Shown: positions 5,990 through 62,086 of the stretch, one piece after another | How positions within the stretch are numbered: position 1 is the first letter of the stretch | Layout: each line of letters starts with the position of its first letter | Source of the DNA: Nitrososphaeraceae archaeon | GTDB lineage: Archaea; Thermoproteota; Nitrososphaeria; Nitrososphaerales; Nitrososphaeraceae | Direction of reading: 5' to 3' | Length of the DNA stretch: 64,000 nucleotides | Assembly: GCA_031316115.1 (NCBI GenBank) | Contig: JALDRC010000005.1 | Span: 1-64,000, forward strand | Made by a program: the position numbers and the translations under genes | The notes under the pieces: model-generated | Databases searched by the model: none | The model's input: only the letters and a program-made list of their open reading frames with translations | What the model was told of the DNA's origin: nothing

Positions 5990-6931
5990 CTAATATTTTC
6001 TTTCATTACCAATATTTATCACCTTCTCCTTCTCATTCTCAATGTCAATAATTTGTTGTTGCAGTTTCCATTTTGAAATAAACTCATAGGGTGTAAGATA
6101 CCTTAGTGCAGAGTGTATTCTGTTCTGGTTGTAATCAGTGAATGCATCTCTGATTGCTGATTCTGCTTCCTGATAGTTCTGGAAATCATTTGACCAAATA
6201 TACTCCTTCTTCAGTGTCTTGTGGAATGATTCAATGTGTCCGTTTTGTTCTGGTGTATTGTAGTAGATATGTTCCAGTTTCAATCCTAGTACAGATATAG
6301 CTTTTCTAAATGCTTTGCTTGTATACTGTGAACCGTTGTCTGTTCTGATAACCAGGTTTTCAGGTGTTATACCTTTATGTGTTACAAGAGCATTTTCTAT
6401 CGCTATTATTGCATTTTCTTTTACTGCAGACAGATCAAAACAGTAGCCAACCCATTCCCTTGTAAATACATCAAACACATTGAATAGGTAGCCCCATCCA
6501 TCAATACCACAATGTACGTATGTTAGATCTGCTTCCCATACTTGGTTTGGTCTATTTGCTTTTACATTGGGTACTTTTGAACGAAGGATTTCCCTCTTAC
6601 TTTTAGATGGCGTAATGTAACCCATCTTTCTGAAGATTCTTTGTACCCTCTTTCTGTTGATGGGTATTCCTAATGCTCTTGTCAGCATTGGAGCCATTCT
6701 TCGGGTACCATAAGTTGGTCTTTGTAGGGAGATTCTTTGTATCTCTTTTTCTATCGTTTTTGTTGTTGATGGTATTTCTGCAGTAACTGCAGTTACTGCA
6801 TTAGCAATAGCATATCTGTGAATTTTATTTCGGTAGTACATATTTTTACTACATCCAGAATATCTCAATGCCTTTCTAATGCTAATTCTTCTTGTTGTGC
6901 TGTTATTGTTGTTTATTATTGTCCTTACCAC
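5990..6931 (-). CDS. IS3-type transposase OrfB, DDE integrase domain (313 aa)
   Basis: This is the catalytic half of an IS3-family transposase. It has an N-terminal HTH_21-like region (about 60-110, with YGTRRM and RKRVQRIFRKMGY) and an rve integrase core with the full catalytic triad D135 (WEADLTYV), D198 (IRTDNGSQY) and E234 (QNGHIESFHKTLKKEY). D198 and E234 are separated by 35 residues, the classic D-35-E spacing. The nominal start is GTG at 6931. The frame stays open upstream to the A7 run of OrfA, so the protein is probably made mainly as a fused OrfAB by -1 frameshifting. No inactivating change is visible. Confidence 0.92.
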   Translation of the reverse strand: MVRTIINNNNSTTRRISIRKALRYSGCSKNMYYRNKIHRYAIANAVTAVTAEIPSTTKTIEKEIQRISLQRPTYGTRRMAPMLTRALGIPINRKRVQRIFRKMGYITPSKSKREILRSKVPNVKANRPNQVWEADLTYVHCGIDGWGYLFNVFDVFTREWVGYCFDLSAVKENAIIAIENALVTHKGITPENLVIRTDNGSQYTSKAFRKAISVLGLKLEHIYYNTPEQNGHIESFHKTLKKEYIWSNDFQNYQEAESAIRDAFTDYNQNRIHSALRYLTPYEFISKWKLQQQIIDIENEKEKVINIGNERKY

Positions 6932-6933
6932 TG

Positions 6934-7266
6934 CTAACCTTTCCTTCCTGTTTCTAACGTTTTTTTAAAAGCATCTATTGCTATTGTCTGTTCACCGATG
7001 ATCCTCTTTAGACGTTCATTTTCTGTTTCCATAACTTTGTTGATGTTATCTTTACTGGTACCTGACAATGCAATCTTACCTCCTTCTATGAATTTCTGTT
7101 TCCAGTTATAGAACACATTTGGATTTAGATTGTACTTTCTACATAGTTCTGCTACTGTGATGTTTGTAGTCAGTGATTCCATTACAATCCTTGTCTTGTC
7201 TTCTGGTGTCCATCTTCTACTCTTAGTATTTCTGTTGTGGTTATTGTTTTTACTAACACCTTGCAT
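6934..7266 (-). CDS. IS3-type OrfA, helix-turn-helix protein (110 aa)
   Basis: OrfA binds the element's terminal repeats. Residues about 15-70 form a transposase_8-type helix-turn-helix (RRWTPEDKTRIVMESL ... AELCRKYNLNPNVFYNWKQKFIEGG). The C-terminal part (80-108) is a leucine-zipper-like coiled coil (ENERLKRIIGEQTIAIDAFKKTL). Near its 3' end a run of seven A (plus-strand T run 6960-6966) precedes ACG in the message. Slipping -1 on this run joins OrfA to OrfB, whose frame has no stop between the run and its own GTG. This is the usual expression mode of the family. Confidence 0.88.
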   Translation of the reverse strand: MQGVSKNNNHNRNTKSRRWTPEDKTRIVMESLTTNITVAELCRKYNLNPNVFYNWKQKFIEGGKIALSGTSKDNINKVMETENERLKRIIGEQTIAIDAFKKTLETGRKG

Positions 7267-10456: not shown

Positions 10457-10494
10457 ATGATGACCGATATATTGAATCCAGAAATTCAAGAGTT
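10419..10494 (+). repeat. 38-bp tandem duplication over the moxR start, creating a short upstream ORF
   Basis: The segment beginning ATGATCAC at 10419 is repeated with a period of 38 bases at 10457 (ATGATGACC). Both copies contain TATTGAATCCAGAAATT. Because 38 is not a multiple of three, the upstream copy is out of frame. It forms a 13-codon reading frame resembling the protein's own N-terminus and ends in TGA at 10458-10460, overlapping the moxR start codons (ATGATGA). This could couple or dampen translation, or be a neutral duplication. Confidence 0.7.
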
Positions 10495-11458
10495 AAATAG
10501 AAAAGCAGAGCAATATTGCCAACTTCTTTCTAATATACACAATGAGATTAGCAAAGTAATTGTAGGTCAAGATAAAATCATTGTCAAATTGATATTGGCA
10601 TTATTGTCAAAGGGTCATGTATTATTAGAGGGAGTTCCAGGTCTTGCCAAAACTTTATTGATAAAGACATTATCCGAATGCATCGACTCCAATTTTGTAA
10701 GATTGCAATTTACTCCAGATTTATTACCCGCAGATATTATTGGAACCAAAATTTATGACCATAATTCTACTTCATTTAGAACAGTAAAAGGACCAATCTT
10801 TTCTCATTTTGTTTTAGCAGATGAAATAAACAGAGCTCCGCCAAAAGTCCAATCCGCATTATTAGAAGCAATGCAAGAAAAACAAGTAACTATACAAGGT
10901 GATACGTTTCCACTCAAGGAGCCATTTTTTGTTATGGCTACTCAAAATCCCCTTGAATCAGAGGGTACCTACAAGCTACCTGAAGCACAAATTGATCGAT
11001 TTATGTTTAAACTCTTGATTTCATACCCTCGAAAAGATGAAGAATCAGAAATTATTCATAGATTTACAGAAGGGATTGATGTTAAAATCCAAGAAATAAT
11101 CTCTACTGATCAATTAATGGAAATTCAAAAATTTAATCACCAAATCTATACCGATCAAAAAATTCGTGACTATGTTGCACAGATTGTTGATGCTACAAGA
11201 CATCCAGAAGATTATGATCTTGACATAGACAACAATATAGAATATGGTGCATCACCTAGGGCTTCTCTCTGGCTAACAGTGGGTGCGAAATCCAATGCAA
11301 TTCTTAATGGTAGGGGATACGTAATTCCACAAGATATTCAAGATATTGCCTATGATGTATTACGCCACAGAATTCTTCTTACCTATGATGCAGAAGCAGA
11401 ATATATTACTACCGATCAGATAATTAAAACCATACTAGAGAAAATACCTGTTCCTTAG
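10457..11458 (+). CDS. MoxR-family AAA+ ATPase (333 aa)
   Basis: This is an AAA+ chaperone-type ATPase of the MoxR (APE2220/MRP) group, which works with VWA-domain proteins in maturing or assembling protein complexes. Walker A is GVPGLAKT at 59-66, Walker B is VLADEINRAPPK at 119-130 with D122 and E123, and sensor 1 is ATQNP at 161-165. The C-terminal lid domain (about 205-333) includes the sensor-2-like GASPRASLW. It is the first gene of a run with DUF58, VWA and Gln-rich membrane proteins, the Bat (aerotolerance)-type arrangement. Two adjacent ATGs (10457, 10460) are possible starts. The client is unknown. Confidence 0.9.
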   Translation: MMTDILNPEIQELNRKAEQYCQLLSNIHNEISKVIVGQDKIIVKLILALLSKGHVLLEGVPGLAKTLLIKTLSECIDSNFVRLQFTPDLLPADIIGTKIYDHNSTSFRTVKGPIFSHFVLADEINRAPPKVQSALLEAMQEKQVTIQGDTFPLKEPFFVMATQNPLESEGTYKLPEAQIDRFMFKLLISYPRKDEESEIIHRFTEGIDVKIQEIISTDQLMEIQKFNHQIYTDQKIRDYVAQIVDATRHPEDYDLDIDNNIEYGASPRASLWLTVGAKSNAILNGRGYVIPQDIQDIAYDVLRHRILLTYDAEAEYITTDQIIKTILEKIPVP

Positions 11459-11488
11459 GTATTTTTACAATCTTCTGGAAGTGATTTT

Positions 11489-12364
11489 TTGCAACAAACA
11501 CAAGAAATTCTAAAACAAATCAAAAAATTAGAAATTTCTACAAAATATCTAGTGAACGAATTGATTACTGGAAATTATCGATCTACATTTAAGGGACAAG
11601 GTATTGAATTTTCAGAAATTAGAGAATATAGAACAGGAGACGATATACGTTCTATAGATTGGAATGTTACTGCTAGATACAATCAACCTTACATTAAAGA
11701 ATTTGTTGAAGAACGAGATCTGCAAGTATATTTTCTTTTAGATATGTCAAGTTCTGGAAGTTTTGGAAATAAAATTCCTAAAAAAAGAAAAGCATTAGAA
11801 ATTGTAGCAAGCTTGATGTTTGCAGCACTGAAGAATAATGATAATATCGGTATTTTTTTATTTACTGAGAAAATTGAAAAATTTATTCCTGCTAGAAAAG
11901 GGAAAAAACATGTCATGCAAATTCTAAGCTCAATCATTTCTTTCAAACCAAAATCAAAGACTACTAACTTGAAAACAACACTCGTTCAAATCACACAAAT
12001 TCTAAAAAAAAGATGTATTTTGTTTATACTTTCGGATTTTTTTGATTCAAATGATTATATAAAACCGTTAAAAATACTGAGGAGAAAACATGATGTCATT
12101 ATCTTAAAAATCTCGGATTTACGTGAGCAAGAAATTCCAAAAATAGGTTTAATAGAGCTTGAGGATGAAGAAACAGGAGAACAGCTTCTTGTAGATACAT
12201 CCGATCCAGTTTTTCAAAAAAAATATACCGAGATTGTATCAAATAATGAGTCACAATTGATTTTAAATCTTACAAAATTGAAAATAGATTTCATAAAGAT
12301 TTTATCTGATGAAAATTACGAGATCCCTTTAAGAAAATTCTTTAAAAAGAGAACTAGGAGATAA
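11489..12364 (+). CDS. DUF58 domain protein (291 aa)
   Basis: This protein contains the DUF58 signature (EIREYRTGDDIRSIDWNVTARYNQPYIKEF split around residues 39-70). A VWA-like half follows, with FLLDMSSSGSFG around residues 88-99 that resembles a MIDAS (D-x-S-x-S). No membrane helix is visible. DUF58 proteins are regularly encoded directly after moxR and before membrane-bound VWA proteins. The gene starts with TTG at 11489, 30 bases after moxR, and ends 4 bases before the next gene. Its role as an adaptor between the ATPase and the VWA components is inferred from this conserved context. Confidence 0.87.
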   Translation: MQQTQEILKQIKKLEISTKYLVNELITGNYRSTFKGQGIEFSEIREYRTGDDIRSIDWNVTARYNQPYIKEFVEERDLQVYFLLDMSSSGSFGNKIPKKRKALEIVASLMFAALKNNDNIGIFLFTEKIEKFIPARKGKKHVMQILSSIISFKPKSKTTNLKTTLVQITQILKKRCILFILSDFFDSNDYIKPLKILRRKHDVIILKISDLREQEIPKIGLIELEDEETGEQLLVDTSDPVFQKKYTEIVSNNESQLILNLTKLKIDFIKILSDENYEIPLRKFFKKRTRR

Positions 12365-12368
12365 CAAT

Positions 12369-13319
12369 TTGGCTGGATTCGATTCTCAGATTGTTTTAAT
12401 TGCACTTCTTGTTATTCCTGGATTGTATTTTCTTTATTATAAAATAATATCTAAAAAGAGAAAGGAAGCGATTAAATTCAGTAATTTAGAATTTGTAAAA
12501 TCTGCAATAGGTAATAAAAGAAAATTACGGAGGGATCTATGGATATTTTGTCTGTCTTTAACAACAATTGGATTGATGATTATAGGCTTTGCTAATCCAC
12601 ACATCCCACTTGAACAAAGTAAAGAGGGAGTAAATGTAGTGCTTGTAATCGATGTTTCAGGTAGTATGCAAGCTACTGATTATGAACCTGATAGATTGGA
12701 GGCAGCAAAAAATTCTGCAAAAATTCTTGTAGAGTCATTACCTCCTAAAGATAATGCAGGAATTGTAATATTTGGGACAGGTGCAACTACTGCAGCATAT
12801 CTGAGTCCAGATAAGGACAAGGTCTTAGAAAAACTCACTAATATTGCGCCAACAAACGGGGAAACGGCTATTGGGGATGGATTAAGTCTTGGAATTGATA
12901 TGGCAACATCTATTCAGAATAAGAAAAAAGTTGTGATTTTACTCAGTGATGGAGTAAGTAATGCAGGAGTAATCTCTCCATCAGAGGCCGTATCTTTTGC
13001 TAAATCAAACAATATTCAAGTTTACACAATTGGACTTGGGTCTGAAGGAAAAACCATTCTTGGTTATGATTTTTTTGGGAGACCGCAATATGCAGAACTT
13101 GACGAAAATACACTCAAAGCAATCGCTGAGCAAACAGGTGGGAAATATTTCAAGTCTGTTGATATCAAAACATTAAATGAGATTTATCAAAATATAAGTA
13201 CTGATATAAAACGAGAAAAAGAAGAAACTAACATTAAAGATTGGTTTTTTGTCTTTGCACTCGGCTTTTTATTTTTACAGATATATTTGAGATATGGCAG
13301 GGGTAGAATAATACAATGA
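12369..13319 (+). CDS. membrane-anchored VWA protein, BatA-like (316 aa)
   Basis: Two N-terminal hydrophobic segments (about 7-24 and 57-75) anchor the protein. A von Willebrand A domain follows with a complete MIDAS: D95-V-S-G-S99, T of GETAIGDG and D of LLSDGVSNAG. A third membrane helix lies near residues 291-308. The membrane-VWA-membrane layout is that of BatA/BatB proteins. The start codon is TTG at 12369. The 3' end overlaps the next start by four bases (ATGA at 13316-13319), which indicates co-translation. It probably forms a membrane complex with the Gln-rich partner downstream and is acted on by the MoxR ATPase. Confidence 0.88.
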   Translation: MAGFDSQIVLIALLVIPGLYFLYYKIISKKRKEAIKFSNLEFVKSAIGNKRKLRRDLWIFCLSLTTIGLMIIGFANPHIPLEQSKEGVNVVLVIDVSGSMQATDYEPDRLEAAKNSAKILVESLPPKDNAGIVIFGTGATTAAYLSPDKDKVLEKLTNIAPTNGETAIGDGLSLGIDMATSIQNKKKVVILLSDGVSNAGVISPSEAVSFAKSNNIQVYTIGLGSEGKTILGYDFFGRPQYAELDENTLKAIAEQTGGKYFKSVDIKTLNEIYQNISTDIKREKEETNIKDWFFVFALGFLFLQIYLRYGRGRIIQ

Positions 13320-14950
13320 AAATAATTGGTATTTTATTCTTATTCATCTTTTTAGTTTCCCTTCAAGTTGTTGATGCACAAGATATTTTGTTCTCATCTG
13401 AAAAAACTGAATATTATTTTAATATTGGTGAAGAGGCTATAATACCAATTGAAATAAACAATACTTATGGAAAACAGATTTCTGGCATCTTACAATATAC
13501 TATGACACAACAAATCAACCAAGGAAATGTTCAATTCTCAAATTCTAATACAGAAGCAAAATCCCTTGTATTAAACGAAGAATCCCAAAAAATTACTTTG
13601 GATTTAGGTACGTCTGATAATCCTTCTGATTTAATCATGAATCTAAATTTCAATTATAATGAAAACGGAGATCGAACTGTTCCACTAGGCCCTATAATAA
13701 TTCATTTTGTATCAGATGATTCTCAAAAAAATAATCAACAAAATAAATTACAAAGCTCTTCTCAACCAAACACACAGTCTCAGCAACAAGATTTCTTTTC
13801 CCAACAAGAACAACAAATGCAACAAAGGCTAGATGAACTACTTGCCAATCCAGAAGATTTCTTTTCCCAACAAGAACAACAAATGCAACAAAGGCTAGAT
13901 GAACTACTTGCCAATCAACAAAACCCTTTACAAAATCAGCAACAACGGCTTCAAAATAACCAGTTATCTCAAGATAGCAACGCATTAAAGCAACAGATAC
14001 AGAAACAGTTACAGCAAGATGAACAAATAAAAAAAGAGTTTGAAAAGAAAGTATTATCTAATGATGATTTTCGTAATAGACATCAATATCTTTTAAAGAA
14101 TGGTTATAACGTAACTAATGGTAGTTTTAATCCCATCTCTAATGATACTGGCAGTTTTGATATAAGATACAACAATACCAATGGAAAATGGGCTACGTTA
14201 CAAGGAAATATGAAAGATGGAACAATAACTGATCTCAAACAACAGACACAAGAACAACAAGAAAAACTTTTGGAAAAATTAAAGCAAAATAAACAATTTC
14301 AACAATTCCATAATCAGTTAGTTACAGAAGGATTTTCTCAAAATGATGTTAATTTTCGATCTAATGAAAATGAAACTGATATAAGACTTCAATATGAGAA
14401 TCAAAAACATGATAACGCAACAATTACAGCAAATTTTGAAAATGATGAGATTAAGAATGTTACATTAGAAGATAATAGTTCTAACACCTATGATCTAATC
14501 CTTTTATTAATATCTGTGATAGTTATTGTATCTGCAATTTCTATTTATTTTGTAATAAAAAAATTCAAGAAAAAAACATTTACTGTTATCAATGATTCAT
14601 CTCCAATTCCAAAATTAAAATCCTATGAATACCTTACTGAATCAAAAAAACTAATATCGCAAGCTCAACAGTATCATGATAAAGGAGAGTACAAGGAAGC
14701 TTTTGGAATTGCAGGAAAAGCAATTAGATTATTTTTGAGTTACGATGCCGGTTTTAAAAGAGAAACAACCAGTGAGGAATTAATAAGATTAATACAAAAA
14801 CATAATTACCCTATAGAGACTATTAGAGAATGCTTGAAAATTATTGATTTAGTAGAATTTGCTAAATCTAATACGACCCCGGATGATTTTAAAAAAATTA
14901 TATCACTTTTTAACAAGTTATCAAATAAACAAAACATCAATAAAACTTAA
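13316..14950 (+). CDS. secreted/membrane Gln-rich protein, BatD-like position (544 aa)
   Basis: An N-terminal signal sequence (residues 1-21, ending VVDA) is followed by a beta-rich extracellular region (about 24-135). Next come a Gln/Asn-rich linker (about 140-240), a further globular part, a transmembrane helix at about 392-413, and a cytoplasmic alpha-helical domain (about 430-540, SQAQQYHDKGEYKEAFGIAGKAI) like the tail of BatD/DUF4129-type proteins. The linker contains two identical 21-residue units encoded by a 63-base exact repeat. It overlaps the BatA-like gene by four bases. I infer it is the extracytoplasmic partner of the VWA protein, although the sequence itself is not a confident BatD match. 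Confidence 0.7.
   Translation: MKIIGILFLFIFLVSLQVVDAQDILFSSEKTEYYFNIGEEAIIPIEINNTYGKQISGILQYTMTQQINQGNVQFSNSNTEAKSLVLNEESQKITLDLGTSDNPSDLIMNLNFNYNENGDRTVPLGPIIIHFVSDDSQKNNQQNKLQSSSQPNTQSQQQDFFSQQEQQMQQRLDELLANPEDFFSQQEQQMQQRLDELLANQQNPLQNQQQRLQNNQLSQDSNALKQQIQKQLQQDEQIKKEFEKKVLSNDDFRNRHQYLLKNGYNVTNGSFNPISNDTGSFDIRYNNTNGKWATLQGNMKDGTITDLKQQTQEQQEKLLEKLKQNKQFQQFHNQLVTEGFSQNDVNFRSNENETDIRLQYENQKHDNATITANFENDEIKNVTLEDNSSNTYDLILLLISVIVIVSAISIYFVIKKFKKKTFTVINDSSPIPKLKSYEYLTESKKLISQAQQYHDKGEYKEAFGIAGKAIRLFLSYDAGFKRETTSEELIRLIQKHNYPIETIRECLKIIDLVEFAKSNTTPDDFKKIISLFNKLSNKQNINKT
13788..13916 (+). repeat. 63-bp exact tandem repeat coding Gln-rich units
   Basis: Positions 13788-13850 and 13854-13916 are identical, with a period of 66 bases. 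The repeat encodes FFSQQEQQMQQRLDELLAN twice. The perfect identity at the DNA level indicates a recent slippage or duplication event within the Gln-rich linker, which keeps the reading frame. Confidence 0.95.
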
Positions 14951-49718: not shown

Positions 49719-50225
49719 CTATTCAGGATTTGATGTATTTAATTTATTGATAAAATCCTGATTCAAAGAAATTCGAGATTCATCTTCCTTTTTAACAGGA
49801 TATCCAGGTATATTGATAATTCTTTCTCCAATAGAGACGTGACCATGAACTACTAACTGTCTAGCTTGATGTGGAGATTTTATTATAGCTTTCTTCATAA
49901 CAACGGTTTGAAGCCGTCTTTCCAATATATCCTCAATTTTTAAATTTAAGACATCATCCAAGGTAGCAGATTCTTGTACTAAACCTAGTCTTTGCAGATA
50001 TGTTAGAAGTTTTGTCTCCTTTTCTTGTCTGCCTTCTATAGTTAGTGCTAATAATTCTCGTGCTTGATTTCTAATATCAGCTACTTTAGTCTGTGCCTTC
50101 CATAATTCGTTTTTACTTCTAAGACCATAGGACCCGATTAAATATAATTCTGAATTTAACTGATCTGTTGTCCAAATCTGTCGAGGTCTTCGAAATGTTT
50201 TTTTAGATTTCTTAGGATCGCCCAT
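49719..50225 (-). CDS. rps4: 30S ribosomal protein S4 (168 aa)
   Basis: This small-subunit protein nucleates 16S assembly. The N-terminus (MGDPKKSKKTFRRPRQIW) is typical of archaeal S4. The S4 RNA-binding domain follows (RRLQTVVMKKAIIKSPHQARQ in part, then LVVHGHVSIGERIINIPGYPV, about 99-140). It starts in an overlapping TAATG with the rps13 stop (A shared at 50225), so the two are translationally coupled. The archaeal order S13-S4 is kept, but S11 does not follow here because a convergent gene comes next. Confidence 0.95.
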   Translation of the reverse strand: MGDPKKSKKTFRRPRQIWTTDQLNSELYLIGSYGLRSKNELWKAQTKVADIRNQARELLALTIEGRQEKETKLLTYLQRLGLVQESATLDDVLNLKIEDILERRLQTVVMKKAIIKSPHQARQLVVHGHVSIGERIINIPGYPVKKEDESRISLNQDFINKLNTSNPE

Positions 50226-50707
50226 TATTCACCACTTTTCTGCACTTTCTGAGTAGTTTGACCACTTTTGCGAACACCAACAGCGCTTCCCCTTCTACCG
50301 GTCGTACGAGTACATTGGCCTCTAACTCTCAACCCAAACATATGCCTATATCCTCTCCAGCTCATAATAGATTTCTCTCGTTCAATATCATTAGATATTA
50401 TAAAATCTAAATCAGAAGTAATCAGATGAACATCAGAACCGGTTTCCATATCTTTTCTTCTATTAAAATAGAAATTTGGAATACCAGCTTTATTTGGGTC
50501 CTTTAATGCCATTTCTATATCTCCTAATTCCTTATCTGTTAGAAATCCAACTCGAATATATGGATTGATATTTAATTTCTGAAGCAAAACTTGGGCAAAG
50601 TTGTAACCAAGCCCTTTTACCTTACTTAGTGCTACAATCACTTTTTTTTCTCCCTCTACATCTTTCCCTGCAATTCGAATGATATACTTATAGTCGCCTG
50701 ATGACAA
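50225..50707 (-). CDS. rps13: 30S ribosomal protein S13 (160 aa)
   Basis: This small-subunit head protein contacts the P-site region. It shows the archaeal S13 elements: YIIRIAGKDVEGEKKVIVAL (about 8-27), a helix-two-turn-helix (VKGLGYNFAQVLLQKLNI), and the C-terminal basic tail with HMFGLRVRGQCTRTTGRRGS (about 126-145). The length is standard for archaea. It lies upstream of rps4 in one transcript. The divergent gene at 51064 leaves about 350 bases for the promoter. Confidence 0.96.
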   Translation of the reverse strand: MSSGDYKYIIRIAGKDVEGEKKVIVALSKVKGLGYNFAQVLLQKLNINPYIRVGFLTDKELGDIEMALKDPNKAGIPNFYFNRRKDMETGSDVHLITSDLDFIISNDIEREKSIMSWRGYRHMFGLRVRGQCTRTTGRRGSAVGVRKSGQTTQKVQKSGE

Positions 50708-51063: not shown

Positions 51064-52725
51064 TTGATTTTTGAAGTTGAAAAATTAGTTTCTCAGTCGT
51101 ATTCTACACTGCCAGAATATACGGAAATAATGCCAGGAGTTCCCGAAAAATATAAAGAAATTGGGACTCTCGAAGACCTATTACTAATTAATTATAAACA
51201 TTCAGAAGTAAATAAGCAAATTAGAGGGAATTTGATAAGATTTCTTAAAAAAGAAAAAAATCCATATCCAGGTATAATTGGATATGACCAAGAGGTGATA
51301 CCTGCAATCAATAGGGGGATTCTATCAGGTCATGATTTATTATTTGTAGGACAAATAGGACAAGCAAAAACAAAACTTGCAGAAGTGATATCAAAAAATT
51401 TACTTTCACATATTCCCATTGTCAGAGGATCATTAACGAACGATATTCCCACTACAATTCCTGAAAGAGAACTCGTTTCTTTGATAGAAGATAAAGAAGT
51501 TATGCATTATTCTCCAAAATTTAACGTTTCAAAGGAAACTGAAGAAATTATACGTAACAATGGACTAGATACTAAGATTGATTGGATTAGTGGAAAGGAC
51601 AGATATAGATATATTTTAGCTACTCCGGATATCTCCGTAAAGGATCTAGTAGGACAAATTGATGCTATTAAAATTGCAAAAAAAGGTGTAGAAATATACA
51701 ATATCGAATCATATTCTCCTGGTCAGTTATTACAAGCTAGACATGGGATTTTATGTATAGATGAATTACCAGTGTTAGATCCTCGAAAACAAGTTGCGTT
51801 ATTAAGCATTCTTCAGGAGGGAAAATTTACTACAGGTTCTTATCCTGTATTTTTTGAACCAGATCTGAAAATTATAGCTACATCAAATCCAATAGATTAT
51901 ACCCACTCAGGGAAAATAATAGAACCTTTATTTGATAGATTACGTAGTCATATCGAAACTCAATATCCAAAAAAAATTGCAGATGAAATATTAATAATTG
52001 TCCAAGAAATAAGACCGATTAATCCAGAAAATATTATTTTACCTATTTTTATTTTAAAAACTATTGCATTAATTACTAACCTAGCTCGAAAACACTCGGA
52101 TATCAATCAAGAAAAAGGTGTTAGTGTAAGAATGTCAGTACATTCTACTGAAATAATCATAGCTGAAGCTGAAAGAGTAAGATCATTATTGTATGAGGTT
52201 AAAACTGTGCCAAGGTTTTCAGATATTCAATGTATTCATCAGACATCTAAATTTGAATTATCTGAATTAGAAGATACTAATAAAAATAGAATGGAAATAT
52301 TGAATAAAATTATTTCTGATTCAATAAAAATAATTTCCAAAGAATATATGGATGACTTGAATCCTAGACAATTCAAATTATTAAAAGATGAATTTCAAAA
52401 AAATAAACAATTTGTGGTATCGCAGACATTTGTTGGAAAAAATAATTCGGAATCCACAAATAATAACTATGAAAACCAATTAAAAAATTTCCCAAATTTA
52501 ATTCAAATAATAGATCAAATTTCAAAAAAATTAAAAAAAGAAAAAGATGAATTTGTAGAATTATTAATAAAAAATGGAATTCAAACCAATGGAATATTAT
52601 TTGCCGAAGATAATAATTTAGAATATATGTTTTCAATACTAGAACTTATTTTAGAAGGGTTAAGAAATTTAGACAATCCAATACTAGATAGAACGGAAAG
52701 AGATACTTATGAAAGTACAATATAA
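51064..52725 (+). CDS. magnesium-chelatase-like AAA+ ATPase (553 aa)
   Basis: This AAA+ protein belongs to the ChlI/BchI side of the MoxR-helix-2 insert clade. Walker A is GQIGQAKT (96-103), Walker B is LCIDELPVLD (D233, E234), with sensor-1-like ATSNPIDY and the arginine-finger region EPLFDRLRSHIETQ. The long C-terminal half (about 320-553) is helical and not recognised. It starts with TTG at 51064 and overlaps the next gene by 17 bases. No chelatase H subunit lies nearby, so metal insertion is only one possibility. It opens a four-gene operon with two ATPase/VWA pairs. Confidence 0.83.
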   Translation: MIFEVEKLVSQSYSTLPEYTEIMPGVPEKYKEIGTLEDLLLINYKHSEVNKQIRGNLIRFLKKEKNPYPGIIGYDQEVIPAINRGILSGHDLLFVGQIGQAKTKLAEVISKNLLSHIPIVRGSLTNDIPTTIPERELVSLIEDKEVMHYSPKFNVSKETEEIIRNNGLDTKIDWISGKDRYRYILATPDISVKDLVGQIDAIKIAKKGVEIYNIESYSPGQLLQARHGILCIDELPVLDPRKQVALLSILQEGKFTTGSYPVFFEPDLKIIATSNPIDYTHSGKIIEPLFDRLRSHIETQYPKKIADEILIIVQEIRPINPENIILPIFILKTIALITNLARKHSDINQEKGVSVRMSVHSTEIIIAEAERVRSLLYEVKTVPRFSDIQCIHQTSKFELSELEDTNKNRMEILNKIISDSIKIISKEYMDDLNPRQFKLLKDEFQKNKQFVVSQTFVGKNNSESTNNNYENQLKNFPNLIQIIDQISKKLKKEKDEFVELLIKNGIQTNGILFAEDNNLEYMFSILELILEGLRNLDNPILDRTERDTYESTI

Positions 52726-54094
52726 CACAGGAAAAGATTTTATATATTTTCCATTTGATGATAAACTAGATGGAACTCAAAGAAAAGAAGAAGAAGACGA
52801 ACAAAATTTATCTAATGAGGCTTTAGATGAACTGCTTAAAACAGTTGGAAGAGAGGTTCTGAAAGAAAGAACACCAGCATTAGAAGAGTTAGAATCAACA
52901 TTACAAGAGATATGGAAGAAAAATAAATTTAAAGATAATATTAGTAATATCAATAAAGTTGATGCGAATAAATTTAATATTAATGATAATGAAATAAAGG
53001 AGAAAAAACAAGGTCCTATAATTTCCTTGCTCATTAAGAAAGGATATTTGAAGAAATCAGATAAATGGTTGAGTAACAAAGGATTTACAATTGTTGGACA
53101 AAAAATTCTGCACGATGTCATGAAAGAGCTCAAAGGTGGAGATTTTGGATTACATGAAACAAGAAATCAAGGTAATGGCTCATTGATATTAGATACAACA
53201 AAGAGATATGAAGTTGGAGATGATATTAGGCTTATCGATGTACCAAAATCGTTGTTGAATTCTATCCAACGGCTTGCAAAAAATAAGAAAAAGATAGAGC
53301 TCCCGATAGAAGTTGATGTTGAAGATTTTGAAGAATATGAAACGGTAAAAGATGTTAGAGTTGCAATAGTTTATTGTATCGATCTCAGTTCTACGATGAG
53401 ATATTCAACTTTATATGGAGATTTAAGTAGAATCGAAGCAGCAAAAAAGGCGTTGTGGACTTTATATCTATTGAATAGAAAATATTTTCCATCTGATGTT
53501 ATTGAAATAATAGGATTTGGTGCTCTTGCTTCAAAAGTTAAGCCTACAGACATTCCCTATCTTAAAACATTCGAACCTGGAACCGATTTTCTTCATTACA
53601 CGAACTATCAGGCAGCTTTAAGATTGGCTAAAAAAATATTGAACAAGAACTCCTTTGAAAGTAAAAGAATAGTCTTGATTACAGATGGTCATCCGAGTGC
53701 ATGTTTTATTGATAATGAGGAAAAGGAAAAAATGATATCTCAAAGACCTTATTCAAATTTTTATATTCCCGATGATGAAACTAAAAATTATATAAAACAG
53801 ACCAGGAATATGGACCTGGATGTTAGATTTGGAGAACTAGTTTACTTATGTTATCGATACAGACAAGTAGATCAATTTATAGGCGAACACACTATTATAG
53901 AAGCAAAAAAATGCAAAAAAATAGGAATCGAAATTGATACAATAATGATAAGTGAAGAAGATTCTTTATTGAACTATGTGAATGAAATGGAAAGAATTGT
54001 GAATGGGAGATCGTATTACATAAACCCAGAGGTAATTGATAAAATATTACTAACAGATTATATTAACAATAAAAAATTAATGATAAGTAGATGA
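52709..54094 (+). CDS. VWA-domain protein paired with the AAA+ ATPase (461 aa)
   Basis: After a charged helical N-terminal half (about 1-215), a von Willebrand A domain begins with the MIDAS D225-L-S-S-T229 (IVYCIDLSSTMRYS) and continues with VLITDGHPSAC (D of the third MIDAS loop). It has no signal peptide, so it is cytoplasmic, like ChlD/BchD-type partners. The start lies 17 bases inside the ATPase gene, a strong sign of coupled production. The protein is probably the substrate-engaging partner of the ATPase. The client is unknown. Confidence 0.83.
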   Translation: MKVQYNTGKDFIYFPFDDKLDGTQRKEEEDEQNLSNEALDELLKTVGREVLKERTPALEELESTLQEIWKKNKFKDNISNINKVDANKFNINDNEIKEKKQGPIISLLIKKGYLKKSDKWLSNKGFTIVGQKILHDVMKELKGGDFGLHETRNQGNGSLILDTTKRYEVGDDIRLIDVPKSLLNSIQRLAKNKKKIELPIEVDVEDFEEYETVKDVRVAIVYCIDLSSTMRYSTLYGDLSRIEAAKKALWTLYLLNRKYFPSDVIEIIGFGALASKVKPTDIPYLKTFEPGTDFLHYTNYQAALRLAKKILNKNSFESKRIVLITDGHPSACFIDNEEKEKMISQRPYSNFYIPDDETKNYIKQTRNMDLDVRFGELVYLCYRYRQVDQFIGEHTIIEAKKCKKIGIEIDTIMISEEDSLLNYVNEMERIVNGRSYYINPEVIDKILLTDYINNKKLMISR

Positions 54095-54153
54095 ATATAT
54101 AATTTATTCATAGCTTAGGTTAATTTATAAATTAATTAATACAAATTCATTGT

Positions 54154-54963
54154 ATGAGTAGTGTAATTGAGAGTATCAAATATTTAGATTGGAATGGATC
54201 GATTGACATTTTAAATAGGGCTAATAAACTTAAGCTCTTTACTTTAATCATTGGACCAAAGGGTACTGGAAAGACATCACTTGTAAGAAAATTTGCAGAA
54301 GATGTTAAAAAAAATATTTTTTCAGTGAATTTTAGTTTAAGAACTAGGGAATCTCACCTCATTGGAACTAAAACTATAGAGAATGGCGATATTAAGTTTA
54401 TTGAAGGTATTTTAATAAAGTCAATGAGAGAGGGAGGAATCCTTTACCTAGACGAGTTAAATGCAGCTGAACCAGATATGCTTTTGAGATTGGATGAAGC
54501 ATTGGACGAAAGAAGACAATTAATACTAAAAGAAGCAGAGGGACAAACTATATATGCACATAATGAATGGTTTGTTATAGCTACCATTAATCCCTTATCA
54601 CATGTAGGAACAAAAGAGCTGCCTCCACAATTATTAAGTAGATTTCCCATCAGAATAAGTATGGACTATCCACCAGAAGACATTGAACTAGAAATAATTA
54701 AACATCATGCAGATGTAAATAACGAAAATATTGTTTTGGTGCAACGTGCAATAAAGTTAGCAAAGGGATTAAGAGAAGCAGCAGCTGTTGAAGAATTGTA
54801 TTATGGTCCAAGTCTAAGAGAAACAATAGCATTTTCTAAATTAATTAACATAGGAACCGATCCGAAATTATCTGCTGAGATAGTTTTTGCTAATGTATAT
54901 AATCAATGGGGAGAAGTAGAATTTAGAAAAGTAATGGATATGATAACTTCTATTTTTGGATGA
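54154..54963 (+). CDS. CbbQ/NorQ-like MoxR-type AAA+ ATPase (269 aa)
   Basis: This is a compact AAA+ ATPase: Walker A GPKGTGKT (34-41), Walker B ILYLDELNAAEPDM (D100, E101), sensor 1 ATINPLSHVGTKELPP and the arginine-finger segment QLLSRFPIRI. The short length and the VGTKELPPQLLSRF segment resemble CbbQ/NorQ proteins that remodel enzymes together with VWA partners (CbbO/NorD). It starts 59 bases after the first pair and overlaps the next gene by four bases. It is the second ATPase of the operon and clearly different from the first. Confidence 0.85.
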   Translation: MSSVIESIKYLDWNGSIDILNRANKLKLFTLIIGPKGTGKTSLVRKFAEDVKKNIFSVNFSLRTRESHLIGTKTIENGDIKFIEGILIKSMREGGILYLDELNAAEPDMLLRLDEALDERRQLILKEAEGQTIYAHNEWFVIATINPLSHVGTKELPPQLLSRFPIRISMDYPPEDIELEIIKHHADVNNENIVLVQRAIKLAKGLREAAAVEELYYGPSLRETIAFSKLINIGTDPKLSAEIVFANVYNQWGEVEFRKVMDMITSIFG

Positions 54964-56552
54964 TCATAAATATGTCATTAAGTAAAAGAAATTTAAGAAA
55001 TGACATACTTTTAGACATATCGATTTTTTTAGCAAGACGATGGTCTGAAAATCCTAAAGTTATTGTTTCAATATCTTCTGATAATCATCCGCATACTGAT
55101 ATCGACAAACAGCATATTTTTATTTCTACTTTGAATGATTTTCATGGGGAGGATTTTGATAAATATAGACAATGGAGGGTAACTCTATGGTACGAAGCTA
55201 TGAGGATAAAATATAGTACAAAAGTTAAAGCATCTAGCAAAGATCATGCATATGGTTTTATACTAAATTGTTTAGAATCGAAAAGAATTGAAACCCTAGG
55301 CCTTGAAACGTGGCAAGGTATGTTTAAAGAAATTATTTTCTATGAAGCAATGTCATGGATGTCAAAACCTTTACTAAATTCCATATACGGAAGACACAAA
55401 ATAATAGAGGCTTTTTCACAATATTTCCTTACTGGATATATTAAAGGTGAATTATTTGGTAATGAGTTTGATAGGGTAAAAAATGCCGTCGATTACGCGA
55501 ATAAATGTATAAATGATGCAATTGAACATAATCGAGGAACAGATTGGTTATATGGAGAAGTACGAGAAATCATAAAACGATTACAGATAGATCCTTTATT
55601 ATCAATTCCTATTATTACCCCCAGATCGAAATTAGGAATGGCTCTAAACAAGTCAGAATTGATAAAACAGTTAGAAAAAATTGTAAAATCTAAATTAGTG
55701 AGTAAAGAATTTGACAAATCAATTAAGGAAATAATAGAAGCTAAGGAGGTAGTAAAGGAGTATGAAACCCTGATAAAGGAAAGTAAAAAATCAGAGACAA
55801 AAGGATATGAAAGTTTAGAAAATTTTGATATAAGTACACCCAACAAGATGGATGTAGATGAATCAGAAATATATGATATAGAACTAATTCAAAAAGTAAA
55901 ATCTGCTTTTAGAGATTGGAAATCTGGTTGGATAGAAGTTCATGAAGAAAAAGGCGATGAATTGGATGTAGAAATTTATCTAGAGTCACAGAATAAACCT
56001 TTTCTAAAAGATTACAAAATTTCAATTAGAACAAAAGTTGTAATTTTACTGGATCATTCTAGTAGTATAGAGGATTCTGAACTAAAGTACAAACAAGCAA
56101 CTGTTGCATTATGCGAGGCATTAGATTATTTAGGAATAGATTTTTCTGTTTTTGCTTTTAGTACCGAGTCTAAAAAGGTAAAGTGTTGGCTAATCAAACC
56201 CCCAAAGATTCCATGGTCCACTGTAAATGCAAGAAGATTAGTTCAGATTAGAGCAAGTGGCGGAACACCATTAGCAGAAATCTATTCAATATTGCTATGG
56301 TTTATCAAATCGTTTAAGCCAAACATCATGATCACTCTTACAGATGGAGAACCATCCAATTATGATGCGGTGAAGGAAATGGTTTTGAAATATAGAAGTA
56401 TGTCAATACACATGGCAGCGCTTGGAGTTGGAAAAGACATTCAAGATTTGATAAACATAGGTCATAATTTGAAATATTTAAATTATAATAAGACATTGGC
56501 TAGTAGAGTCGAAGATATTCCAAAAAAAGTGATCAATTTGCTAAAAATTTAA
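54960..56552 (+). CDS. VWA-domain protein, CbbO/NorD/CobT-like (530 aa)
   Basis: The N-terminal two thirds (about 1-350) is helical. The C-terminal VWA domain carries a MIDAS D365-H-S-S-S369 (VVILLDHSSSIEDS), T of ASGGTPLAE and D of LTDGEPSN. This layout, a long helical region followed by a C-terminal VWA, is that of CbbO/NorD and of CobT-type cobaltochelatase subunits. It starts at ATG 54960, overlapping the CbbQ-like stop (ATGA). A second Met at codon 5 is the alternative. No signal peptide is present. It most likely acts with the preceding ATPase. Confidence 0.84.
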   Translation: MIINMSLSKRNLRNDILLDISIFLARRWSENPKVIVSISSDNHPHTDIDKQHIFISTLNDFHGEDFDKYRQWRVTLWYEAMRIKYSTKVKASSKDHAYGFILNCLESKRIETLGLETWQGMFKEIIFYEAMSWMSKPLLNSIYGRHKIIEAFSQYFLTGYIKGELFGNEFDRVKNAVDYANKCINDAIEHNRGTDWLYGEVREIIKRLQIDPLLSIPIITPRSKLGMALNKSELIKQLEKIVKSKLVSKEFDKSIKEIIEAKEVVKEYETLIKESKKSETKGYESLENFDISTPNKMDVDESEIYDIELIQKVKSAFRDWKSGWIEVHEEKGDELDVEIYLESQNKPFLKDYKISIRTKVVILLDHSSSIEDSELKYKQATVALCEALDYLGIDFSVFAFSTESKKVKCWLIKPPKIPWSTVNARRLVQIRASGGTPLAEIYSILLWFIKSFKPNIMITLTDGEPSNYDAVKEMVLKYRSMSIHMAALGVGKDIQDLINIGHNLKYLNYNKTLASRVEDIPKKVINLLKI

Positions 56553-58835: not shown

Positions 58836-59498
58836 TTAGTTTTTAACTTTAATTTTGTTTTGTAAATTTTCCCAGTCAGCAAGAAATGTTTTTAGTCCTT
58901 TATCAGTTAATGGATGAGAAAGCATTTTTCCTAAAATTTCCGGAGGCATTGTAACTACATCTGCTCCTATTTTTGCAGATTGAATTACATGAATAGGATG
59001 TCGTATACTTGCAACGAGAATTTTTGCTGTATATTGATAATTTGTAAAAATTTGTTTTATTTCACTAATAATATTCATCCCATCTTGACCAGTATCATCG
59101 AGTCTACCGATAAACGGACTTACGTATGAAGCACCAGCTTTTGCTGCAAGAAGAGCTTGATTAGCAGAAAAAATCAAAGTGACATTAGTTTTTATACCCT
59201 CATTTTTTAAGATTTTTACTGCCTTCAAACCTGCTGGAATCATTGGAATTTTTACTATAACGTTTGAACCATACTTTGTAAGATTATGTGCTTCGTCAAT
59301 CATTTGTTCTGTTTCGGTTCCTATAACTTCTAAACTCACTGGTCCTTTAATAATATCTACTATTTTATGCATTATCTCTTCCGGATTTTCATCCTCTTTA
59401 GAGAGAAGAGTAGGATTAGTTGTGATTCCGTCTACCATACCCATTTCATTGTAATGACGTATAGCCTTCAAGCTAGCAGTGTCAAGAAATATTTCCAT
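58836..59498 (-). CDS. transaldolase, fructose-6-phosphate-aldolase-like subfamily (220 aa)
   Basis: This is a TIM-barrel Schiff-base enzyme transferring dihydroxyacetone units in the non-oxidative pentose phosphate pathway. The opening MEIFLDTASLKAIRHYN and GITTNPTLLSKE (24-35) are diagnostic. The Schiff-base Lys is K83 (NVIVKIPMI). The short length (about 220) is the TalC/FSA type. It overlaps the upstream transketolase C-subunit gene by 17 bases, and together with the fused N-subunit gene forms one operon. Whether it acts as transaldolase or as F6P aldolase is not decided by sequence; the neighbours favour transaldolase. Confidence 0.88.
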   Translation of the reverse strand: MEIFLDTASLKAIRHYNEMGMVDGITTNPTLLSKEDENPEEIMHKIVDIIKGPVSLEVIGTETEQMIDEAHNLTKYGSNVIVKIPMIPAGLKAVKILKNEGIKTNVTLIFSANQALLAAKAGASYVSPFIGRLDDTGQDGMNIISEIKQIFTNYQYTAKILVASIRHPIHVIQSAKIGADVVTMPPEILGKMLSHPLTDKGLKTFLADWENLQNKIKVKN

Positions 59499-60459
59499 TT
59501 ATTATTCTTGTTAAATTTAATACGTTCCGTTCTATTTCTTTTTCGCTTAGGCCATATTTTTCAAGCAATAAATCTAACTCTGTATCTCTAGCAGATTCAC
59601 CAAATGTGTCCATAATACCAATACGTTTTACATGACAAGGGTATTCATCACAACATACTTCAGCAACTGCACTTCCTAGACCTCCAATATAATTATGTTC
59701 TTCTACAGTAATTATAGAACCTGTTTCTTTAGCAGCTTTGATAATCATCTTCCTATCAATTGGTTTTATGGAATAACAATCTATTACCCTGCATGAAATA
59801 CCATAATCCTTTTTCAAGTTATTTGCAACTTTTAAAGATTTGTAAACCATTAATCCACAACTGATAATAGTCATATCAGAGCCATCCCTCAAAATATTTC
59901 CTTGCCCAATTTTAAAATCTGAATCATTTTCGTCATATATTACTTCGCTTGATGGTCGAGCAAGTCGCATGTAAAAAGGTCCTTGAGTTTCTACTATATT
60001 TTTTATAAGTTTTGTAACAGCGACGGCATCAGAGGGCGTTATTACCTTCATATTAGGGATTGATCGCATTATAGATAAATCTTCTATCTGCTGATGTGAA
60101 GCCCCATCAGGACCTACCGTTAAACCTGCATGAGAGACAACTAGCTTTACATTTAGATCTGGATAACATATTGCATTCCTTATTTGATCTAGACATCTCC
60201 CTGGTAAAAAGGCTGCATATGTACTAGCAAATGCGATTTTTCCTCCGATAGCTAAACCCGCAGCAATTGAAACTAAATTAGCTTCTGCTATTCCTATATT
60301 AAAAAATCTTTCAGGAAATTTATCCCCAAATTTCTTTGTTTTAAGGGAATCAGTAGTATCCGATCCTACACAAACAATATCCTTATTAACAGAACCTAAT
60401 TCTACCAATGTGTTACCATAAGCAGAACGCATATCTGCATATTTGATATCAGAGTTCAT
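59482..60459 (-). CDS. transketolase C-terminal subunit (325 aa)
   Basis: This is the pyrimidine-binding plus C-terminal half of transketolase, as the separate subunit used in archaea. Landmarks are IGIAEANLVSIAAGLAIGGK (about 56-75, catalytic Glu of the TPP-activating motif), HAGLTVGPDGASHQQIEDL (110-128), SDAVAVTKLI and, in the C-terminal domain, VEEHNYIGGLGSAVAEV. It pairs with the N-terminal subunit encoded upstream (11-base overlap) to make one active enzyme. Length is normal for the split form. Confidence 0.93.
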   Translation of the reverse strand: MNSDIKYADMRSAYGNTLVELGSVNKDIVCVGSDTTDSLKTKKFGDKFPERFFNIGIAEANLVSIAAGLAIGGKIAFASTYAAFLPGRCLDQIRNAICYPDLNVKLVVSHAGLTVGPDGASHQQIEDLSIMRSIPNMKVITPSDAVAVTKLIKNIVETQGPFYMRLARPSSEVIYDENDSDFKIGQGNILRDGSDMTIISCGLMVYKSLKVANNLKKDYGISCRVIDCYSIKPIDRKMIIKAAKETGSIITVEEHNYIGGLGSAVAEVCCDEYPCHVKRIGIMDTFGESARDTELDLLLEKYGLSEKEIERNVLNLTRIINGNIS

Positions 60460-62086
60460 TTAGTTCTCCCTCTATACCAAGTTCATTTGCCAATGGAATC
60501 AAAATATGTTTTCGTGCAATTAACCAATCTTTTCTTATATTATTTTCATCTGCCTTTCTTAAAAGATTTCTCTCAAGTGTTACATTTGTTTTGTGTCTTA
60601 ATTGGATAATAGCTGCATTTATATCATTATTCGAAAAGACAGCACTTCCTGCTACTAATATTCTTGCCCCGGCATCATAAACCTGTTGAACTGTAGATGC
60701 ATCGATCCCCCCGTCTGCCTCAATATATCCTTTAAATCCTTGAATTTGTAAAAACTTATTTAAACTAGCAATTTTAGATGTTATTTCTGGAATAAACTTT
60801 TGGCCTGAAAATCCTGGATGTACTGACATTACTATTATTACATCGATAGAATTCAGAAAAGGTATAATCCAGCTTGGAATATTGGATTCGGGGTTAATGG
60901 CTATGCCTAAACTAATCCCGTTAGACAACACTTTATCTCTTATCAACATGAATTGCTCTTTATTGCAAGTCTCAGTATGAACAGTAATGATATCACAAGC
61001 TGCGTCAATATAATCATCGATATAAAGATGTGGCTTTTCAATCATAAGATGAGCATCGAATGGAAGATTGGTTATTGGGCGTAATTTCTTGATTGTATCT
61101 GCCAAAAAAGTTCTATTAGGCACAAACTTGCCATCCATTACATCTAAGTGAACAATATCAGCTCCGGCTCGTTCAGCCTTCTTTATTTTTTCCTCATAAT
61201 TTTCTTTTTTACCGGCAATAATTGATGGAGCAATCATATAATCGCCTACTAATTCTTCTAGCAACAATGGTAGTTGTTCAGGGTTAGGCGCTTTTCCATG
61301 CCATTTTGGATTATTTGCCATATGTTTTATTCCATTGCCTTTTATTGTATTAGCAATTATAATTGTAGGCTTATCTTTTATTTGATTTGCTTTATTCAAA
61401 GCTTCCATGATTTGTTCTAATTTGTGTCCATTTATTTCAATTACATTCCAATTAAATGCAAGCCATTTATCTCTAACTGGATTTAATGGCATAACATCTT
61501 CAGTAAAACCGTCTTGTTGTATACTATTTCTATCAAGAAATGCAATTAGCTTATCAAGTTTATATTTTGGGGCTGTCATTGCAGCTTCCCATACTTGACC
61601 TTCATTAGTCTCACCATCACCTAATAACACATAAACATAGTTGTTTCTGTTGTTAATTATATTGGCTAAAGATAACCCAATTGATACTGAAAGACCTATA
61701 CCTTCTGAACCAGCAGAAAATTCTACACCAGGCAAAGAGTGATTTTCTAGATATTTAGAATACATTACAGGATGACCTTGCAGTCTTGATCCCAGTTTTC
61801 TCAAATCCTTCATTTCTTCCGTTGGAAAATAACCTGCAACCGCCAAAGTTGCGTAATAACCAGGAGCAGAATGACCTTTTGAGTTTATAAAGTAATCTCG
61901 TTCTGACCATTCGGGATCCAATGGATTGTGTTTTAGTATTCTAAAGTATAAAACACCCATTATTTCTGCTGCAGAAAATGATGCTCCTGGATGACCAGAT
62001 CCAGCCTCAGATATACCTTTTATGGCATTTATCCTAACTTGACGGACTTTTTCTCTCAGATCCAAATAGCGCATACCGAATTTCAT
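60449..62086 (-). CDS. transketolase N-terminal subunit fused to ribulose-phosphate 3-epimerase (545 aa)
   Basis: Residues 1-~282 are the TPP-pyrophosphate half of transketolase: GSGHPGASFSAAEIMG (29-44), KGHSAPGYYATLAVAG (70-85), and the TPP motif GDGETNEG (156-163). From M284 a complete ribulose-phosphate 3-epimerase follows. Its metal and active-site residues are visible: IVHLDVMDGKFVPN (H313, D315), AHLMIEKP (H346), MSVHPGFSGQKF and EADGGID (D458). The remaining ~45 residues (500-545) form a helical tail. One polypeptide thus carries two steps of the same pathway. It opens the operon with the C-subunit and transaldolase. Confidence 0.93.
   Translation of the reverse strand: MKFGMRYLDLREKVRQVRINAIKGISEAGSGHPGASFSAAEIMGVLYFRILKHNPLDPEWSERDYFINSKGHSAPGYYATLAVAGYFPTEEMKDLRKLGSRLQGHPVMYSKYLENHSLPGVEFSAGSEGIGLSVSIGLSLANIINNRNNYVYVLLGDGETNEGQVWEAAMTAPKYKLDKLIAFLDRNSIQQDGFTEDVMPLNPVRDKWLAFNWNVIEINGHKLEQIMEALNKANQIKDKPTIIIANTIKGNGIKHMANNPKWHGKAPNPEQLPLLLEELVGDYMIAPSIIAGKKENYEEKIKKAERAGADIVHLDVMDGKFVPNRTFLADTIKKLRPITNLPFDAHLMIEKPHLYIDDYIDAACDIITVHTETCNKEQFMLIRDKVLSNGISLGIAINPESNIPSWIIPFLNSIDVIIVMSVHPGFSGQKFIPEITSKIASLNKFLQIQGFKGYIEADGGIDASTVQQVYDAGARILVAGSAVFSNNDINAAIIQLRHKTNVTLERNLLRKADENNIRKDWLIARKHILIPLANELGIEGELNEL

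Follow-up and report, generated by a model that had tools for sequence, protein, structure and literature searches.

Two adjacent AAA+ ATPase/VWA gene pairs of a Nitrososphaeraceae archaeon are probably separate co-chaperone modules

A 64,000-nt stretch of Nitrososphaeraceae archaeon DNA (contig JALDRC010000005.1, positions 1 to 64,000; referred to below as the window) carries four co-directional genes for two AAA+ ATPase/VWA protein pairs in tandem, which we name pair A (ATPase A1 and VWA protein A2) and pair B (ATPase B1 and VWA protein B2). We examined these genes in the window and among their relatives and concluded, with good confidence, that the locus consists of two separate, neighbouring AAA+/VWA co-chaperone modules: an archaeal branch of a bacterial pair (pair A) and a CbbQ/NorQ-like pair of almost all ammonia-oxidizing archaea (AOA) (pair B). 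By analogy, the most likely role of both pairs is that an AAA+ ring and a VWA adaptor remodel, or insert metal into, separate clients. A sequence-only reading of the same DNA had proposed a single machine dedicated to metal insertion or complex maturation; two AAA+/VWA pairs of the metalloenzyme- or complex-maturing kind are indeed present, but the idea of one dedicated system was not borne out.

The two pairs occur independently in most relatives, an outcome that the sequence-only reading had itself named as refuting its proposal. Orthologs of A1 and A2 were detected in the same 53 of the 150 Nitrososphaeria genomes of our survey set, each of which was searched with all four proteins; B2 was present in 109 genomes and an orthologous B1 in 108, the genome without B1 being a fragmentary metagenome-assembled genome (MAG). 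Since each pair has been kept as a pair across dozens of genomes, the association within pairs is not due to chance. Both pairs were found in 51 genomes, pair B only in 58, and pair A only in two (G127 and G136). Among the 51, the pairs abut in three (the window genome, G114, and G139), lie ∼9-10 kb apart in five members of one genus (G070, G092, G099, G113, and G126), and are located elsewhere on the chromosome or on different contigs in the remaining 43. Within AOA families there was no positive association between A and B, and whole AOA genera are devoid of pair A.

Gene context was analyzed by gene calling and clustering over the window and 56 further regions, the functions of neighbouring genes (uS4, uS13, transaldolase, and the transketolase halves) being named by reading translations. 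Pair A is divergent from uS13-uS4 (usually also glmS) in all AOA families sampled. Pair B stands beside transaldolase and a split transketolase in Nitrososphaeraceae-like genomes and in part of the Nitrosopumilaceae-like genomes. In family f3, whose gene content would fit Nitrosocaldaceae, pair A adjoins transaldolase and pair B is found elsewhere. The simplest history would be an old A-B-transaldolase order repeatedly broken between A and B, and such repeated breaks argue against selection keeping the two pairs together.

The four open reading frames (ORFs) given by the sequence-only reading, their coordinates (Table 1), the overlaps of 17 bases (A1/A2) and 4 bases (B1/B2), and the 59-base gap between A2 and B1 were all confirmed in the window. 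Its "operon" fared less well: the genes are co-directional, but a TATA-like element precedes each pair separately, 25-27 bp before the start codon, which makes a single operon doubtful. Similar TATA-like elements are found upstream of A1 orthologs in most relatives compared, and many B1 orthologs have comparable AT-rich elements upstream, regardless of the preceding gene. Pfam AAA_5 was matched weakly by A1 (3e-8) and strongly by B1 (5e-25); the Pfam VWA families were matched weakly by both A2 (3e-8, with VWA_2 as the sole Pfam match above cut-off) and B2 (1.7e-5). A1 is a ChlI/MoxR-type AAA+ protein in which a long insert separates Walker A (GQIGQAKT) from a TPDxxxxDLvG motif; it has Walker B CIDELP, sensor-1 SNP, and arginine finger FDR. 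A2 has a helical N-terminal part followed by a C-terminal VWA domain, whose metal ion-dependent adhesion site (MIDAS; DLSST/TNY/TDG) is of the DxSxT and not the DxSxS type. B1 is a MoxR AAA+ protein of the CbbQ/GvpN/NorQ type (Walker A GPKGTGKT, Walker B LYLDE), and B2 has an N-terminal part of ∼340 residues followed by a C-terminal VWA domain with DHSSS/GGTPL/TDGEP. In alignments of 16-20 relatives (16 orthologs for pair B), the catalytic positions are invariant in both ATPases and MIDAS is complete in both VWA proteins; Walker A, Walker B, sensor 1, and the arginine finger of B1 are invariant in 16/16 orthologs. In A1 Walker A the usual G before K is replaced by A, and the neighbouring G, Q, K, and T do not vary among 20 relatives. 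The Walker motifs and both MIDAS sites had been described as looking intact, which is right for the catalytic residues and the MIDAS sites but passes over the variant A1 Walker A and the DxSxT of A2; both variants are conserved in the family and are therefore not damage.

On sequence grounds, pair A belongs, as the archaeal branch, to an uncharacterised ATPase/VWA pair that is widespread in bacteria. A database search with A1 found bacterial proteins at 30-36% identity with E-values down to 4e-59 (Thermomicrobium, 36%). A1 aligned with the bacterial ATPase at 36% identity over 407 aa (5e-69), and the profile match (positions 35-438) included the insert and the C-terminal domain. A VWA gene adjoins the ATPase gene in Thermomicrobium (TRD_RS11480/TRD_RS11485) and Tsukamurella (EL451_RS20575/RS20570), and the Thermomicrobium VWA protein matched A2 (3e-45) over profile positions 48-446, beyond the VWA domain. 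A GTDB genome scan yielded at least 578 confirmed A1 relatives, of which the best 80 are mostly from Chloroflexota and Actinomycetota and also from Rokubacteria, Nitrospinota, and Proteobacteria; a VWA homologue is directly adjacent in 37 of the 84 loci examined and within the same stretch in most. The bacterial ATPases are annotated as "sigma 54-interacting transcriptional regulator" or "magnesium chelatase." The Tsukamurella homologue follows purN-purH, which we take to be the neighbourhood of Mycobacterium tuberculosis Rv0958/Rv0959 as well, and the listed M. marinum ortholog of Rv0958 (1,392 bp) has a length that fits the bacterial pair A ATPase. Our assignment of the bacterial relatives to the Rv0958/Rv0959 type rests on that neighbourhood and on gene length. 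A literature search on these bacterial pairs found incidental mentions of Rv0958/Rv0959 only, none of the papers found giving a function, and a fold search with A2 returned generic VWA matches only, which are uninformative on its N-terminal part. The locus had been put forward as a candidate for an undescribed system; the family of pair A is widespread in bacteria, and pair B is already in the literature as NorQ/NorD.

Several other observations concern pair A. More distantly related ATPase/VWA pairs resembling pair A were seen in a few other Thermoproteota; one of them (G166 C11) immediately follows genes that read as grpE-dnaK-dnaJ, a position that hints at a general protein-folding role. 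Bacterial pair A homologues are found a few kb from succinate dehydrogenase genes at ∼13-16 loci (Acidimicrobiia and related MAGs); this proximity was taken as lineage synteny and was not used as evidence. A link between pair A and the multicopper oxidase and ZIP transporter that neighbour it in part of the Nitrosopumilaceae was rejected after a profile test, because the oxidase is present in many pair-A-negative genomes (for example, G007, G011, and most of g11) and was undetected in the pair-A-positive g13.

Pair B is by sequence close to the NorQ/CbbQ clade, but it departs from NorQ proper in two respects, the pore-insert motif and a cognate NorB. Among solved structures, B1 is closest to midasin AAA domains (5e-69), followed by NorQ (9e-20) and CbbQ (1e-19). 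In a fold search with the AlphaFold model of B2 (mean predicted local distance difference test score 79), the top four PDB matches were NorD chains, matched in the VWA domain (best E 3e-8), and the N-terminal part had no PDB match. The helix-2-insert motif of NorQ, GRxLL/IxxxxT, grips the VWA finger, and R80 of PdNorQ is located 29 residues before Walker B E109 (PMC13036017). This motif is absent from B1, which has T72 (GTKTIENGDI) at the matching distance, and none of the 16 orthologs has the R or the final T. The window genome (G000, 98.8% complete) was searched family by family with profiles and no NorB-type oxidase was found; PF00115 finds two heme-copper oxidases, both with the O2-reductase HPxVY motif, and nitric oxide reductase was for this reason rejected as the client of pair B. 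One of the two is a second, divergent heme-copper oxidase (736 aa; G000 C17, ∼31.1-32.6 kb) that stands beside a CuA-type subunit II and whose GHPIVY motif resembles those of B-type (ba3) oxygen reductases. The CbbQ_C domain (PF08406) of B1 scored below the Pfam cut-off (15.8 vs. 20.6 bits), and no Rubisco was seen among the ORFs of the window, the genome not having been searched for it. The earlier remark that no nitric oxide reductase lies nearby can be extended to the genome as searched.

A pair listed as NorQ/NorD, with no catalytic NorB, has been reported in AOA (PMC4084955, PMC6790972), and pair B is very likely that pair. The norD/norQ genes were stated to be absent from Nitrosotenuis cloacae SAT1 (PMC4814877); G003, which may be this strain, carries pair B. 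The B1 and B2 trees mostly group by family, a pattern consistent with vertical inheritance of pair B. As pair B is near-universal in AOA and its textbook client was not found, the true client is probably central to these organisms.

A mechanism for both pairs may be drawn by analogy with NorQD, in which cryo-EM revealed a hexameric ATPase ring that grips a finger of the VWA domain; its authors propose that stretching of a linker opens the client for metal insertion (PMC13036017). Each ATPase here would form a hexameric ring and grip the VWA domain of its own partner, the N-terminal part of the VWA partner would bind the client, and ATP-driven motion would result in remodelling of the client or, possibly, in metal insertion. 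Both pairs contain the components that a machine of this type would need. Further precedents are CoxD/CoxE, which help to build the Mo/Cu cluster of CO dehydrogenase (PMC4240915), and RavA/ViaA, which act on fumarate reductase (PMC10585395). Some points weigh against the reading of two co-chaperone modules. Profile searches with A1 and A2 against solved structures found nothing close, A1 having weak matches only. B1 is without the NorQ pore-insert motif, so that its contact with the VWA partner may differ. If the A-B-transaldolase order is ancestral to two families, as it may be, the pairs could once have been linked.

We next weighed more specific or different roles. Pair B could be a dedicated maturation or copper-insertion factor of the archaeal ammonia monooxygenase (AMO), its ring and adaptor opening the AMO apo-complex for copper. 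AmoA was found in 107 of the 150 genomes: 105 have AmoA and B2, 39 have neither, two have AmoA only (G127 and G136), and four have B2 only (G138, G144, G147, and G148, all MAGs of AOA genera). Both genes mark one clade, however, so this co-occurrence says little by itself. Pair B lies 10-17 kb from amoA in many Nitrosopumilaceae-like genomes, but inside a conserved housekeeping block, and the linkage is absent from other families. The involvement of CoxD/CoxE in copper-cluster assembly is a further point in favor, whereas a study of AMO by linkage and blue-native analysis names AmoX/Y/Z and makes no mention of NorQ, MoxR, or chaperones (PMC10030591). A strict tie is weakened by G127 and G136 and also by two non-AOA Thermoproteota from a wider search, G209 and G221, which carry the full pair B (B1 63-64% identical to that of the window; B2 33% in G221) and in which no AmoA was found. 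Because of these AmoA-negative genomes we regard AMO maturation as unlikely, though it is the best placed of the alternatives; the same low standing applies to the version in which pair B is an AMO assembly or copper-insertion chaperone mis-named NorQ/NorD, with a second client in a few non-nitrifying archaea. In G209 and G221, the genes beside pair B read as a permease and a small thioredoxin-like protein with CxxC.

It is improbable that pair B activates a nitric oxide reductase, as a true NorQ/NorD, or the adjacent NirK-type copper enzyme in some Nitrososphaera, as proposed in PMC4084955. The matches of B1 to NorQ and of the B2 VWA domain to NorD speak for such a role, and a two-domain copper oxidase whose best NCBIfam match is copper nitrite reductase lies ∼1 kb away in G131 and G135. 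This neighbour is confined to a few genomes of one genus, however, both heme-copper oxidases found keep the oxygen-reductase motif, and the pore-insert motif of NorQ is missing from B1.

We assign a very low probability to pair A serving as ATPase module in a chelatase for cobalt or magnesium (ChlI/ChlD or CobS/CobT type) with an unrecognised large subunit. In its favor are weak Mg_chelatase and BchD-ChlD profile matches, the database name "magnesium chelatase" for mycobacterial Rv0958, and a transposon insertion 49 bp upstream of the M. marinum Rv0958 ortholog, recovered in a B12-resistance screen (PMC11237697). Yet the equivalog scores were far below cut-off (BchD-ChlD, 19.8 bits against 499.6), and whole AOA genera do without pair A. 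A chelatase identity was rejected because CobN/ChlH (PF02514) had no match in the window genome and A2 is without the N-terminal AAA domain that ChlD carries before VWA. The earlier name "ChlI/ChlD-like" for the first pair is misleading for the latter reason; the absence of a chelatase large subunit, noted for the vicinity, applies to the whole genome.

Less probable still is that the four genes form one dedicated machine. They are contiguous and co-directional with a short gap in the window, G114, and G139, and Nitrososphaeraceae and Nitrosopumilaceae may have inherited the A-B-transaldolase order from a common ancestor; the survey largely refutes the proposal, as the pairs are apart in 48 of the 51 genomes with both, 60 genomes keep one pair without the other, and the TATA-like elements are separate. 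Finally, we give almost no credence to a defence role, in which one pair would act as the switch of a MoxR-vWA ternary conflict system: B1 matches bpMoxR weakly (6e-7), but PADLOC matches are weak only, no third component (VMAP, iSTAND, FtsH, or a beta-propeller protein) was seen nearby, where the neighbours are ribosomal-protein and pentose-phosphate genes, and inheritance is vertical and core-like.

Setting the locus out as two co-chaperone modules removes a false "four-gene system" and replaces two misleading labels, nitric oxide reductase accessory and magnesium chelatase, by testable statements. The pair A family includes genetically tractable actinobacteria, in which its function could be worked out.

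The features of the locus and its conserved neighbours are listed in Table 1. Among the neighbours, the transketolase N-terminal half and ribulose-phosphate 3-epimerase form one 545-aa ORF (60449-62086) that adjoins the C-terminal half and transaldolase, and an ORF of similar size (cluster c11, ∼549 aa) recurs at many AOA loci. Elsewhere in the window, a third MoxR/VWA-type cluster (10457-14950), apparently unrelated to pairs A and B, encodes a 333-aa MoxR ATPase, a protein resembling DUF58, a membrane VWA protein resembling BatA, and a large membrane protein; two minus-strand ORFs at 5990-7266 read as a two-ORF (IS3-like) insertion sequence.

Table 1. Positions of the two ATPase/VWA pairs, promoter-like elements, and conserved neighbours in the window.
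Feature	Coordinates	Strand	Basis
A1, pair A ATPase, 553 aa, TTG start	51064..52725	+	ORF, Pfam, alignment
A2, pair A VWA protein, 461 aa	52709..54094	+	ORF, Pfam, alignment
B1, pair B ATPase, 269 aa	54154..54963	+	ORF, Pfam, alignment
B2, pair B VWA protein, 530 aa	54960..56552	+	ORF, alignment, fold search
TATA-like element TTTAAATTT, ~27 bp before A1 start codon	51033..51041	+	sequence
TATA-like element TTTATAAATT, ~25 bp before B1 start codon, in the inter-pair gap	54124..54133	+	sequence
uS4 and uS13 ribosomal proteins, conserved divergent neighbours of pair A, not members	49719..50707	-	clustering, translations
Transaldolase, transketolase C-terminal half, and transketolase N-terminal half fused to ribulose-phosphate epimerase, conserved neighbours of pair B, not members	58836..62086	-	clustering, translations

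We compared the two pairs with known systems. Like the bacterial NorQ/NorD (FeB insertion into cNOR), pair B combines a MoxR ATPase with a C-terminal VWA partner, with NorQ at 9e-20 and the NorD VWA domain as top match; it differs in having no GRxLL/IxxxxT, no NorB found, and a B2 N-terminal part without a structural match. CbbQ/CbbO (Rubisco activase) shares the ATPase/VWA layout and the B1-CbbQ similarity (1e-19), whereas the CbbQ_C domain of B1 is under the cut-off. The "NorQ/NorD" of AOA resembles pair B in being present in nearly all AOA and, in G131 and G135, in lying near a NirK-like copper oxidase, as reported for N. evergladensis; its published name implies nitric oxide reduction, which the present evidence does not support. 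CoxD/CoxE has a different client, CoxE is described as membrane-bound, and no CO dehydrogenase was seen near the locus, but it is likewise an AAA+/VWA pair and provides a precedent in copper-cluster assembly (PMC4240915). In the Rv0958/Rv0959-type pair, the bacterial VWA protein is longer (∼650-750 aa vs. 461 aa for A2) and the archaeal ATPase has an N-terminal extension (553 vs. 466 aa); both members are nevertheless homologous to those of pair A beyond the ATP-binding core and the VWA fold, and the genes stand in the same order, adjacent or overlapping.

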